Assembly: GCF_014698235.1 (NCBI RefSeq)
Contig: NZ_JACJSP010000001.1
Coordinates: forward strand, 310,001-374,000
Direction: 5' to 3'
DNA length: 64,000 nt
DNA from: Limnothrix sp. FACHB-406
Lineage (GTDB): Bacteria > Cyanobacteriota > Cyanobacteriia > CACIAM-69d
In this document: in pieces, positions 5,000 to 50,811 of the stretch
Layout of the letters: every line of letters starts with the position of its first letter
How positions within the stretch are numbered: position 1 is the first letter of the stretch
Notes under the pieces: generated by a model
Told to the model about the DNA's origin: nothing
What the model saw: the letters and a program-made list of their open reading frames with translations, nothing else
Databases searched by the model: none
Program-made: the position numbers and the translations under genes

Positions 5000-5705
5000 G
5001 GCAACGGCCAAGCGTTTTCGATCGAAAATCCGGCTAGCCACTCAACCGGCGGGGAAGTTTAGCCCCGATCGTCGCACTTGCCTGGGGTCTGGGGGCGATC
5101 AATCCCGATCGCTCAAATCCTCAACCCTGCGGGAGAACCCCATTGAGGCAAGGGGCTTCAACCCCTTGTCTTCCCTAAATTTCAAGCGCTATTACCCATA
5201 CTGATATCAACACTAAAACTTTGAGATTAATTTTTGAATTAATTTTGGGATTAATTTTTGAATTATTGTGCCCGTTGTTACCGGATTTGCCTTGTTTACG
5301 CTTGCTTGGGACTTTCGATGCAACTCCGTAAACTCGTTTGTTTTTTGGGTGCTTTTTTTAACCCAACACTTAGACCAATTAGCTTTTATTTTCTAATTGA
5401 TTATCTAGAATAATCGATCCTCGAAATCCATGACAAGCTCCAAAAAATAATTCGATGGGTAACCGAAAGTTATAAGATGCAAGGCTACCGACGGTAAAAC
5501 ACAGCCTCCACAGTCAAAAATCATTTTGACAATCTCTATCCATACCTTGGTGAATATCTGCGATTCATCAGTCAACTCATTCACAAATCAACCTATTCAC
5601 AAGTAAAGGCATCACAAGTCAGCTTAAAAAGCAATGGAGATCTCCCTGAAATTTCATCGGGCGATCGCCTGTTTGTGGTTTTTGCTTAACGAAAATTCAA
5701 AATCA
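5000..5705. other. Intergenic region with hairpin and AT-rich repeat
   Basis: About 700 bp with no convincing gene. CAAGGGG (5149-5155) and CCCCTTG (5162-5168) form a 7-bp hairpin that may terminate the upstream gene. A 17-bp direct repeat lies at 5225-5265. The second half is strongly AT-rich and should contain the promoter of the glycosyltransferase gene. Confidence 0.6.
5225..5265. repeat. 17-bp direct repeat, 24-bp period
   Basis: GATTAATTTTTGAATTA is present identically at 5225-5241 and 5249-5265. Confidence 0.85.
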
Positions 5706-45943: not shown

Positions 45944-46204
45944 ATTGGAGCCGTCAGCGATCAGACGATCGACGCGGCCAGCCAACGCAATGGCAGAAAA
46001 TGCAATCAGGATCAACACAGTTAGACCCAAAAATATAGCCAGATTAATCCTTGAATCAAAATCAGGTCTGAGTTAGAAAATTTGATCAAGGACAAAGCAG
46101 GACAAGATCAGCAATTTCTGAAATTTCCTAGATCTGTCTTTTGAGCTTGACCTTTACAATAGAAGAACCGCGCCGTTTTTCATCGCAATAACGTTAGGTT
46201 GCCT

Positions 46205-48865
46205 GTGTCTCCGTTGCCATCATCACTGATTGCCAATCAAGCTGAGTCGATCCAGATTGAAACCCTGGAATTGTTGGAATGGCCGCGCCTTTGCCAGCAT
46301 CTGGCAACCTTTACGGCAACCAAGCTGGGGGCGATCGTGGCCCGACAGTTACCGATTCCGGGCGATCGCCGTACCAGCGAAGCCCTGTTAGCCCAAACCC
46401 GCGAGGCCTGGGAGCTGGAACGCAGCGCTACGGGGGGCCTGAATTTTGGCGGGATTGCGGATATTGGCTCAGCGCTCGATCGGGCAACGCGGGGCGGTGT
46501 GCTGGCCGGTGAGGAACTGTTGGAAGTGGCCACCACCCTCTCCGGGGCCCGCAACCTGCGCCGGGCGATCGATCAGCGGGAAGATTTGCCGGCCCTGGCG
46601 GCCCTGGTTGAGGAGCTGCGGACTTATCCCGAGCTGGAGCAGGAAATTCACTACTGCATCGATGATCGCGGTGATGTGACCGATCGCGCTAGCCCCAAGT
46701 TGGCGGAAGTCCGCGAAAAGCTGCGGGCTGGCCGCGATTGGATTTACCAAAAGCTGCACAACATCATGCAGCAGCAGTCCAACGCGATTCAGGAACCAAA
46801 TATTAGCCAACGGGGCGATCGGTTCGTGATTCCCGTGAAGGCCAGCCATAAGGACGTGATTCGCGGCATTGTCCACGACACGTCTTCCACGGGCGCGACC
46901 CTGTACGTGGAACCCCACACGATTACGGAGCAAAACAACCGCCTGCGCCAATGGCAACGGCAAGAGGCGATCGAGTCGGAAATCGTCCGGCGGCGGCTGA
47001 GCGAGCAAATTGCCGAGGTGGCTTCGGATCTGGAGCGACTGTTGGCGGTGGCTACGGAGCTGGATTTAGCCGCCGCGCGGGCCCGCTATTCCTTTTGGAT
47101 TGAGGGCAATGCACCACGTTTTATTGAGACCGGTGAAACCCTGACCCTGCGGCAGTTGCGCCACCCGCTGTTGATTTGGCAACAGAAGCACGAGCAAGGG
47201 CGGGACGTAATCCCGATCGATGTGCGGGTGGATCCGACGATTCGGGTGGTGGCGATTACGGGGCCGAACACGGGGGGCAAAACCGTCACCCTGAAAACCC
47301 TGGGCTTGGCGGCCCTGATGGCGAAGGCGGGGCTGTTTGTGCCCGCGCGGGAGCCGGTGGAGTTGCCGTGGTTTAGCCAGGTGTTGGCGGATATCGGTGA
47401 TGAACAGTCGATCGAGCAGAACCTGTCCACCTTTTCGGGCCACATCCGCCGGATCGTCCGCATCCTGGATGTCCTGGAGCCTGATCGCCCCACCACCACC
47501 GACGGGTTGAATGTGATCGCCCCGGAAAGGGCGCACGGCGGTGCGCCCCTACCCGAGGGTGATTTTGACGATGCCAACAATCCAGAATTCAACGAAACCG
47601 AAACCGTAGGGGCGCAAGGCCTTGCGCCCTCCGCCGATCGCCCCGCCACCAACGATGATCCGAACGGGTTGGGTGCGATCGCTACGGAAAGGGCGCACGG
47701 CGGTGCGCCCCTACGGGAACGTGGTCTGGAATCGTTGGTGTTGTTGGATGAGGTCGGCGCGGGAACCGACCCGGCCGAGGGCAGCGCCCTGGCTGCGGCC
47801 CTGTTGGAAGCTCTAGCCGATCGCGCCCGCTTGACCGTGGCGACGACGCACTTTGGGGAACTGAAAACCCTGAAATATCGTGACAGCCGGTTCGAGAACG
47901 CCTCGGTGGAATTTGATGACCAAACCCTCAGCCCCACCTATCGGTTGCTGTGGGGGATTCCGGGGCGATCGAACGCCTTGAGCATTGCCCGCCGGTTGGG
48001 GTTGGATGAAGCCGTGGTGACGGCCGCGGGCGATCGGGTTGGCGGCCAATCGGAAGACATCAACCGGACGATCGCCGGACTAGAAGCCGAACGCCGCCGC
48101 CAGGAAGCCAAGGCCAACGAGGTGGCGCACCTGTTGCAGCGGGCGGAGTTTTTGCATGAACAAATCGATCGCAAGGCCCAAACCCTGAAGGAGCGTGAAG
48201 AACAGCTCAAGCAAACCCAAGAAGCCGCCGTCCAAAAGGAAATCGAGCGGGCCCGTAGCGAAATTGCCCAGGTGATCCGGCAGTTGCAGCGGGGCACACC
48301 CACGGGCCAGCAAGCCCAGCAAGCCACGGCCCAGGTGGGCGAAATTGCCCAACGATTTCTACCGTCTCAGCAGCCGAAACCGAAACCCAAGGGCTACAAA
48401 CCCCAGGTGGGCGAACGGGTGCGCGTGCCCAAGCTCGGCGGCGCGGCGGAGGTGCTGGCGATCGATGAGGCCGACGAGGAAATCACGATTCGGATGGGGC
48501 TGATTAAAGCGACCCTCAGTTTTGCCGATGTGGAATCCCTCGATGGCAAAAAAATCGAGGTGCAAAAACCGGAGCCAAAACCCGCGCCGCCGAAAACCAA
48601 GGAGCGATCGATCCTCCGCACCAGCAGCAACACCCTAGATATTCGCGGGGCCCGGGTGGCCGACGCGGAAATCGAGGTGGAACAGGCGATCGATCGGGCG
48701 ATTTCCGCTGACTTTGGTTGCCTGTGGATCTTGCATGGCAAGGGAACCGGTAAACTGCGAGACGGCGTGCGCGCTCACCTCAAAACCCATCGACTGGTGG
48801 AACGGTTTGAGGATGCCCCCCGCGAGGACGGCGGCACGGGCGTGACGATCGCCTATTTGCGTTAG
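46205..48865 (+). CDS. mutS2: MutS2 (Smr-domain ATPase) with palindrome-derived insert
   Basis: An 886-residue MutS2, about 80-90 longer than usual. The coiled core (about 1-330) is followed by the ATPase with Walker A GPNTGGKT (near residue 353), DIGDEQSIEQNLSTFSGHI, Walker B LVLLDEVGAGTDP (near 513), and THFGELK. The C-terminal Smr domain has LDIRGARVADAE and LHGKGTGKLRDGV. MutS2 resolves branched DNA and rescues collided ribosomes in other bacteria. Between ILDVLEPD and LVLLDEV, an extra stretch of about 75 residues contains ERAHGGAPL twice and VGAQGLAPS once, coded by three GC palindromes. TTG 46199 is another possible start. First of four rightward genes. Confidence 0.93.
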   Translation: MSPLPSSLIANQAESIQIETLELLEWPRLCQHLATFTATKLGAIVARQLPIPGDRRTSEALLAQTREAWELERSATGGLNFGGIADIGSALDRATRGGVLAGEELLEVATTLSGARNLRRAIDQREDLPALAALVEELRTYPELEQEIHYCIDDRGDVTDRASPKLAEVREKLRAGRDWIYQKLHNIMQQQSNAIQEPNISQRGDRFVIPVKASHKDVIRGIVHDTSSTGATLYVEPHTITEQNNRLRQWQRQEAIESEIVRRRLSEQIAEVASDLERLLAVATELDLAAARARYSFWIEGNAPRFIETGETLTLRQLRHPLLIWQQKHEQGRDVIPIDVRVDPTIRVVAITGPNTGGKTVTLKTLGLAALMAKAGLFVPAREPVELPWFSQVLADIGDEQSIEQNLSTFSGHIRRIVRILDVLEPDRPTTTDGLNVIAPERAHGGAPLPEGDFDDANNPEFNETETVGAQGLAPSADRPATNDDPNGLGAIATERAHGGAPLRERGLESLVLLDEVGAGTDPAEGSALAAALLEALADRARLTVATTHFGELKTLKYRDSRFENASVEFDDQTLSPTYRLLWGIPGRSNALSIARRLGLDEAVVTAAGDRVGGQSEDINRTIAGLEAERRRQEAKANEVAHLLQRAEFLHEQIDRKAQTLKEREEQLKQTQEAAVQKEIERARSEIAQVIRQLQRGTPTGQQAQQATAQVGEIAQRFLPSQQPKPKPKGYKPQVGERVRVPKLGGAAEVLAIDEADEEITIRMGLIKATLSFADVESLDGKKIEVQKPEPKPAPPKTKERSILRTSSNTLDIRGARVADAEIEVEQAIDRAISADFGCLWILHGKGTGKLRDGVRAHLKTHRLVERFEDAPREDGGTGVTIAYLR
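47529..47548 (+). repeat. GC palindrome copy 1 in mutS2
   Basis: GGGCGCAC-GGCG-GTGCGCCC: 8-bp stem, 4-nt loop, flanked by GAAA on the left and CTAC on the right. Encodes ERAHGGAPL with flanking bases. Confidence 0.92.
47610..47629 (+). repeat. GC palindrome copy 2 in mutS2, perfect
   Basis: GGGCGCAAGGCCTTGCGCCC is a perfect 20-bp palindrome with GTAG on the left. It encodes VGAQGLAPS with flanking bases, a variant of the same family read in the other orientation. Confidence 0.92.
47691..47710 (+). repeat. GC palindrome copy 3 in mutS2
   Basis: Identical to copy 1 over the 20-bp core, and again preceded by GAAA and followed by CTAC. Encodes ERAHGGAPL. Confidence 0.92.
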
Positions 48866-48885: not shown

Positions 48886-50811
48886 GTGTTGAATGCCGTT
48901 CGATCGAAGGGCTGGCCGTGGCTGGCGGTTTGGGTGCTGCCCGCGCTGCTGCTGGCGGCCTTGATGATGCGTTATGGCGTAAACCTACCCACCTACGACC
49001 AGTGGGACACGCCGGGGGTGTTGTTCGTGAAGTTGGCGGAGCAACAACCCCTGACCTTCGCGGATTTTATTTCCCAGCACAATGAAAGCCGCAAAGTCTT
49101 TCCCCGGCTAATTTTTTTGGGATTGGCTTATCTGACCGGCTGGGATATTCGGGCAGAGTTGGCGGTGATTTTTGCCCTGGTTTGTGGGGCGGCGGGGGCG
49201 ATTTTTGCCCTGGGGCGATCGACCGTTTTAGATCGCAGATTTCAGGCGATCGCCTTTGCCTTAGCCAGTTGCTTACTCTTCAGTCCGTCCCAATGGGAAA
49301 ACTGGGTTTATAGCATTCAAATTGTTGTTTTCCTGCCGATTTTTTGCATCACCACGAGCTTATGGTTGGCGCAATCTTCGCTGAAGTTTTGGCAGAAAAT
49401 TGCGATCAATATTGTGTTAGCTACAATCAGCACCTATTCCAGCGCTAGCGGGATGTTTTGCTGGTTTCTGTCGTTCCCGGCGTTGTTTTTAAAGGATTGG
49501 ATCGTTGGGTTGGGTCGGCAAGATGCTGGTGGGCGCACGGCGGTGCGGGATGTTGGTGAAATTGGATCGTTAGGTGACGAAGATGGTGGTGGGCGCACGG
49601 CGGTGCGCCCCTACAAGGTTGTGGGGGATTTGGGGCGATCGATTCAATTGTTGGGGGCGACGGCTCGCCAATCCTGGATCGGCCTTGGAGTTTGGCTGGC
49701 GGCAATGGCGGCGAATTTGCTGCTCTATTTTTGGGATTACTACAAACCCCCCAGCCACCCGAGTTTTGCAGGGCCGCTGCAACAACCGATCGAGGGGTTG
49801 AAATATTGGTTTGCCTTGATGGGGGCAATCCTGGGGTTTGATGATTTAGGGCTGAGTCAACTGCTGGGTGCTTTGGGATTGCTGGGCTTTTTGGGGTTAG
49901 TAATCCTGGCTTGGCGGGGCGATCGGGTGCGATCGTTTGAGTGGGTGATCTTTGGGTGCTACGCGATTGGAACGGATGCGATCGTCACCCTCGGGCGATT
50001 TGGATTTGGGCCCGATTCTGCCCTGACTTCCCGTTACCAAACCTTTTCGCTTTATCTGTGGATTGCGATTATTCATCTGTCTGCGATTTTGCTGCCCCAA
50101 TTCACTCAGCGCCGCCTACCCAAACCTTGGCGAAAAGGGCTGGTGATTTTTGCATTAACCCTATTTTTAGTGTTGCATTACGCCAGCTTTGCGATCGGGT
50201 CGCGCAACTTGGCAAACTTCAGTCGCGATCGCCATCAGGGCAAAGCTTGCTTAACGTTCATCAACAGTTTCCAAGATGAACGCTGCTTCACGGAGTGGAT
50301 TTATCCTGAACTGAATGACCATGTTTTAAAGACGATCGGGGATGTGGATCGCCTCGGATTTATCAAGCCGCCCTTAGCTTTGCCGATGCCGATTAAGAGT
50401 GATTTGAAAATTATGGCGAAGGGCCAGCCGATCGCCGGAAACTTCCAAACCCTCACGATCCAAAAAAATGACGAGACCTGGGAATATATGGCCGGCGGCG
50501 AGCTGACCTTGGGTGGTGGTTGCCAACCCACGCGATCAGTTTTATTGGCTTACGAAAAAGACGGCGCAACAATTCCCTTCACAGCAGCCAAAGTGGGCAA
50601 AAACTATCGTGGCATGGGGCAAATCATTGGTGATTTTGTTTGTCCTAATAATCGCTGGAGCAAGAGTTTTGAGCTAGACAAATTGGTGTCTGATCCCCAA
50701 AAACGGCTGGAGATTGTGCGATCACCTAAAATCACCGCCTGGGCCTTCGACACCGATCGCGGCACGGTCTACCCCCTCGCCGGTTCCTATTCTTTTCCGC
50801 AAAAATCATGA
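48886..50811 (+). CDS. Unknown polytopic membrane protein
   Basis: A 641-residue protein from GTG 48886 (AGGAGT just before). It has about nine membrane helices in residues 10-450, among them [20 protein letters not shown] and [20 protein letters not shown], an early periplasmic loop with [11 protein letters not shown], and a soluble C-terminal domain of about 190 residues. The plan resembles membrane glycosyltransferases of unknown class, but no motif confirms it. GGRTAVR occurs twice in a loop near residues 215-245, coded by palindrome copies. It is second of four likely co-transcribed genes, 20 bp after mutS2 and overlapping the Nudix gene by 4 bp. Confidence 0.65.
49531..49610 (+). repeat. 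Two palindrome copies inside a 60-bp tandem duplication
   Basis: GGGCGCACGGCGGTGCG starts at 49531 and again at 49591, exactly 60 bp apart. The second copy (49591-49610) is a full palindrome followed by CTAC, like the mutS2 copies; the first has lost the end of its right arm (GTGCGGGA). Upstream bases (AGATG-TGGT) are also repeated, so the unit was duplicated as a 60-bp block. Confidence 0.9.

Follow-up and report, generated by a model that had tools for sequence, protein, structure and literature searches.

GTAG-type REP elements in frame within the hypervariable Walker A–Walker B linker of a cyanobacterial MutS2

How can a core ATPase carry three GC-rich palindromes between its Walker A and Walker B motifs without losing its reading frame, and where did these palindromes come from? 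The question is raised by the mutS2 gene of Limnothrix sp. FACHB-406, which lies in the window analysed here, a stretch of 64,000 nt (contig NZ_JACJSP010000001.1, positions 310,001 to 374,000). The gene is MutS2 by several measures, since its product matches the equivalog model TIGR01069 with 883.6 bits (cut-off 400) as well as PF01713 (Smr) and PF00488, and the Walker motifs and the Smr domain are all present. Over mutS2 it is 89% identical to a named MAG, by which the genome would stand nearest to Limnothrix. Within this ORF, three GC palindromes of 20 bp are present, GGGCGCACGGCGGTGCGCCC twice and GGGCGCAAGGCCTTGCGCCC once, in alternating orientation (-, +, -), and they are translated in order as ERAHGGAPL, VGAQGLAPS and ERAHGGAPL. 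The frame is uninterrupted across all three, so that a sequence-only reading, which had placed three in-frame palindromes between Walker A and Walker B of MutS2, agrees with the sequence, the 888-aa ORF and TIGR01069 alike (Table 1). The chance expectation for the palindrome pattern in the window is 0, as no match was seen in shuffled windows.

Table 1. Features of the mutS2 locus (positions in the 64,000-nt window)
Feature	Position	Strand	Remarks
mutS2 CDS	46199..48865	+	888 aa from first TTG; conserved part from ~46226; TIGR01069, Smr and MutS_V domains
Walker A GPNTGGKT	47261..47284	+	invariant in 30 orthologues
Hypervariable linker, residues 419-500	47480..47725	+	modelled as disordered
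Duplication unit A (REP1 inside)	47483..47552	+	direct repeats D1 and D2; 70 nt
REP1 GTAGGGGCGCACCGCCGTGCGCCC	47529..47552	-	translated (R)AHGGAPL
REP2 GTAGGGGCGCAAGGCCTTGCGCCC	47606..47629	+	translated VGAQGLAP; degenerate counterpart aligned in a congener
Duplication unit B (REP3 inside)	47636..47714	+	direct repeats D1 and D2; 79 nt
REP3	47691..47714	-	same sequence as REP1; with REP2 forms a 109-nt inverted doublet, a layout like the genome's REPINs
Walker B LVLLDE	47735..47752	+	conserved in 30 orthologues
641-aa ORF	48886..50811	+	no family match; REP4 in frame
Shortened REP copy	49531..49547	-	60 nt upstream of REP4
REP4	49591..49614	-	translated GRTAVRPY

By sequence and by hairpin alike, the mutS2 palindromes are GTAG-type REP elements: they have a GTAG tag in front of a GC stem of 8 bp, closed by a small loop of 4 nt (folding z of about -4), and they belong to a family of many dispersed copies that also form inverted doublets. 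A search of the genome for the palindrome and its variants returned 29 copies of the exact GTAG-hairpin pattern and, with up to three mismatches, 96 strand hits, in which symmetric copies count on both strands, the reversed control giving 0 in both cases. A dispersed palindromic family thus gives in-frame codons to a cyanobacterial core ATPase, as the Rickettsia elements do for their hosts' genes, and this central proposal of the sequence-only reading is borne out. The family is divided into a GCGCA-stem and a GCGTAC-stem sub-type, and many of its members are paired as inverted doublets of about 100 nt (99-109 nt; on contigs C3, C11 and C25, and in the congener G002), which is the layout of REPINs. 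Five of the 29 strict copies lie within three well-supported genes, namely mutS2 (three), the 641-aa ORF downstream (one) and a two-domain glycosyltransferase gene (one), a count that leaves aside four ORF-end cases (L002, L011, L014 and L020) in which the domains begin downstream or the ORF is weak. The remaining strict copies are intergenic, at gene ends or at the ends of doubtful ORFs, and the family is therefore mostly extragenic.

The locus itself holds more of these elements than the three first noticed in mutS2, because a fourth copy, REP4, and a shortened one had been missed in the neighbouring gene. Its 641-aa ORF gave no protein-family match in a profile search, and REP4 differs in presence between species, being found in the congener G002 (L066) and absent from the congener G001 (L061). 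Five of the six reading frames of the element are open, and REP1 to REP4 are read in three different frames, giving unrelated peptides; the encoded peptide therefore looks incidental, and no particular peptide seems to have been selected.

A candidate enzyme for the mobility of these elements is encoded in the same genome. The model for REP-associated tyrosine transposases, NF047646 (RAYT cut-off 80 bits), retrieves several Y1 transposase genes, one of which (C11:129967-130434) has doublets of the mutS2-type REP family on both sides and encodes a protein with the HUH motif PNHFHG. In the congener G002 (contig C100), a Y1 transposase gene is likewise bracketed by REP doublets, and another on C25 of the Limnothrix genome has a doublet on one side. 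With NF047646 the transposases next to the REPs reach 61-66 bits, below its curated cut-off of 80, and two of the three pass the Pfam Y1_Tnp cut-off, so that they are best called RAYT-like. Conversely, two genes of this genome pass the RAYT cut-off but stand apart from any flanking copies of the mutS2-type family. The first transposase match (PF01797, contig C9, L030) was discarded as a partner because it is flanked by another family, with GTAGGGTGCATGGGAG hairpins; this second RAYT (L030:1426-2480, 193.5 bits, above the cut-off) sits amid GTAG repeats of that other type, GTAGGGTGCATGGGAG...CTCCCATGCACCCTAC, whose loops are larger. It was also observed on C11 (L104:454-1290) that the near-identical REP doublets either side of a 195-aa transposase gene resemble the termini of some larger mobile element. 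Going by the class to which the elements belong, the RAYT-like enzyme would be expected to mobilize the REPs.

The place where the palindromes sit in MutS2 is a tolerant, hypervariable loop that is long in relatives too. A structure model gives residues 421-498 no secondary structure and a pLDDT of 30-40; this stretch follows a helix at 399-417 and precedes the Walker B strand at 501-507. In the 94 cyanobacterial linkers extracted, a sample biased to long linkers, the length varies between 7 and 122 residues and complexity is frequently low; many MutS2 orthologues are without any linker, and B. subtilis MutS2 has about 3 residues in its place. The stretch that joins the two Walker motifs measures 154 aa here and 72 aa in insert-free cyanobacterial orthologues, an excess of 82 residues, about 58 of which are non-palindrome sequence. 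The palindromes had been credited with adding about 75 residues to an otherwise conserved ATPase, which overstates their share: the three REPs amount to 72 nt, or 24 codons, the net gain over a congener is about 20 residues (154 versus 134), and the site is hypervariable. An equal insert of unrelated sequence in all MutS2 proteins of the lineage had been named as an outcome that would refute the idea, and this outcome applies by half. Relatives do have a long and mostly unrelated linker, the same segment measuring 134 aa in each of two congeneric records where the gene is complete, and 120 and 140 aa in two complete genes of the same family, but the palindromes are members of a real dispersed family nonetheless.

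Part of the history of the insert can be read from its direct repeats. REP1 and REP3 go back to one copy that was doubled, together with its surroundings, by a local in-frame duplication; they are spaced 162 nt apart, a distance divisible by three. This also explains the flanks, for CTAC and GAAA had both been taken as parts of a longer repeat. The former is the reverse complement of the general GTAG tag and holds for the family, whereas GAAA, dropped as a component once the flanks of all strict copies had been read, occurs only at REP1 and REP3 because both lie in the local 70/79-nt duplication. In the congener linker, a degenerate GTAG repeat lies opposite REP2 in the alignment, a different palindrome, CAAGGGGCTTAAGCCCCTTG (the CAAGGGG family), is found roughly at the position of REP1, and the rest is mostly unrelated sequence. 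An exact empty site for the mutS2 copies was found in none of the congeners compared, because the linker diverges too fast. CAAGGGGCTTAAGCCCCTTG is itself abundant, the three genomes holding 154, 360 and 402 copies of it; one copy, with two mismatches, lies at 5149-5168 of the window.

The MutS2 linker of other cyanobacteria has taken up palindromes as well. Hairpins of at least 8 bp are present in eight of the 94 linkers, against 1.2 expected from codon shuffles, although sister genomes are included and the eight are not independent. Two genomes of another cyanobacterial family (L191 and L195) have GGGCGCAGGGCCTGCGCCC twice in the MutS2 linker, one copy being GTAG-tagged; this sequence is dispersed in both genomes, which give 66 and 92 forward hits when at most one mismatch is allowed, and two relatives have few hits (2 and 5). 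The palindrome CCCCCCTTTGAAAGGGGGG in the linker of L064 is not counted as a dispersed repeat, as that genome holds one copy only. In-frame simple tandem repeats, such as CCCAATTCCCAATT, GAGTCAG and GAAGAG-like units, were seen in other MutS2 linkers (L160, L162, L143, L147 and L189). Overall, the Walker A–Walker B linker seems to be a sink, in which palindromic repeats of at least three families have been caught in addition to simple tandem repeats.

A second coding example comes from the fused two-domain glycosyltransferase gene (L001:499-1926), in which a REP (C1:246057) is in frame as VGAHRRAP; in both congeners the same gene has a CAAGGGG palindrome at the REP position, in frame as KGLKPLVP. 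More generally, six of ten slots that are without their REP in a congener hold CAAGGGGCTTAAGCCCCTTG in the same interval (within about 60 bp), and two of the slots with this substitution are coding (mutS2 and the glycosyltransferase gene), each alternative being in frame. Per non-coding kb, CAAGGGG is about tenfold denser around orthologous REP positions (16 in 3.4 kb) than in the remainder of these loci (7 in 15.8 kb), a comparison limited by intervals that align poorly, by two coding slots among those counted and by the common ancestry of the congeners. This enrichment is suggestive only as a sign of exchange. The idea that unrelated palindrome families replace one another at shared permissive slots, proteins included, is therefore put forward tentatively, and we regard it as rather less probable than its absence; if true, it would suggest palindrome-primed turnover instead of independent random insertion.

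Taken together, these results are very probably to be explained by mobile GTAG REPs of the RAYT/REPtron type in a tolerant, disordered MutS2 linker, followed by local duplication, the copies being most likely neutral passengers. From the class to which they belong, the REPs would travel as single-stranded DNA forming the GTAG hairpin, handled by an HUH Y1 transposase, and one or two copies would have entered the linker of mutS2. As this was already long, disordered and hypervariable, insertions and local duplications would be tolerated provided that the frame was kept, and an in-frame duplication of one copy then yielded REP1 and REP3. The copies would make a loop longer without disabling the ATPase, MutS2 activity probably being normal. 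An artefact, in which collapsed or misplaced repeats of a draft genome created the insert, is scarcely credible. A draft contig of the congener G002 (L065) does stop inside the linker, which suggests that this region can trouble assemblers, but the frame is open through all three copies, congener linkers are of similar length and have a degenerate REP2, and a similar arrangement recurs in the two assemblies L191 and L195.

Two other readings would give the insert a function. The REP segment might be under selection, for instance as a linker with a regulatory role or through a DNA or mRNA hairpin that tunes mutS2 expression, and it is true that the REP2-REP3 doublet folds far better than its shuffles (z -6.1), that insertions recur in the MutS2 linker of several lineages and that repair genes are a frequent location of intragenic REPs (PMC3733652). 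Such exaptation is nevertheless improbable, considering that four copies in three frames give unrelated peptides, that congeners have unrelated sequence at the same place and that many orthologues do without a linker. Less probable still is a separate class of protein-coding palindromic elements of the Rickettsia type, kept for its peptide. In-frame palindromes inside an essential-looking ATPase are what such a class would produce, but the elements are 24 nt instead of about 150 bp, they have no conserved frame or peptide, most copies are intergenic, and the GTAG tag and the REP-flanked transposase place them with REPs. With mobile REPs in a permissive linker as the preferred explanation, selfish micro-repeats become protein sequence by accumulating where a protein tolerates them. 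This calls for caution in reading such inserts as functional domains, and makes the MutS2 linker a handy natural record of REP mobility and palindrome turnover.

Among known systems, the closest is that of the GTAG-tagged REPs reported, with their RAYT genes (REPtrons), by Di Nocera et al. (2013, PMC3733652) from over 80 species, cyanobacteria among them; 24 families are distinguished there, GTAG-12, -15 and -16 being cyanobacterial. The elements described here share with them the GTAG tag, the short GC stem, the small loop, the inverted dimers, the linked tyrosine transposase and the occasional in-frame copies. That study already described intragenic REPs, many in DNA replication and repair genes, and reclassified RPE-4 and RPE-6 as CGTC-type REPs; it mentions neither MutS nor Limnothrix/Pseudanabaena, and our literature search found no paper linking MutS2 linkers to REPs. 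The inverted doublets of about 100 nt that bracket a Y1 transposase gene resemble REPINs and their RAYTs (Bertels and Rainey 2011, PMC3116915), which are mainly gamma-proteobacterial and extragenic, unlike some of the copies reported here. The likeness to Rickettsia palindromic elements (RPE) lies in palindromic repeats in frame inside unrelated genes, and it ends with size and coding, because RPE are about 150 bp long with a conserved encoded peptide, whereas the present elements use any open frame and are transposase-linked. Very small mobile repeats, reportedly described in cyanobacteria by Elhai et al. in 2008 (as cited in PMC3116915), would be similar in being small, dispersed and cyanobacterial. 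The in-frame REPs of mutS2 thus fit the class of GTAG REPs described in 2013 and are not a new Rickettsia-like class; what is unusual, and worth pursuing, is that one linker catches unrelated palindromes in several cyanobacteria.
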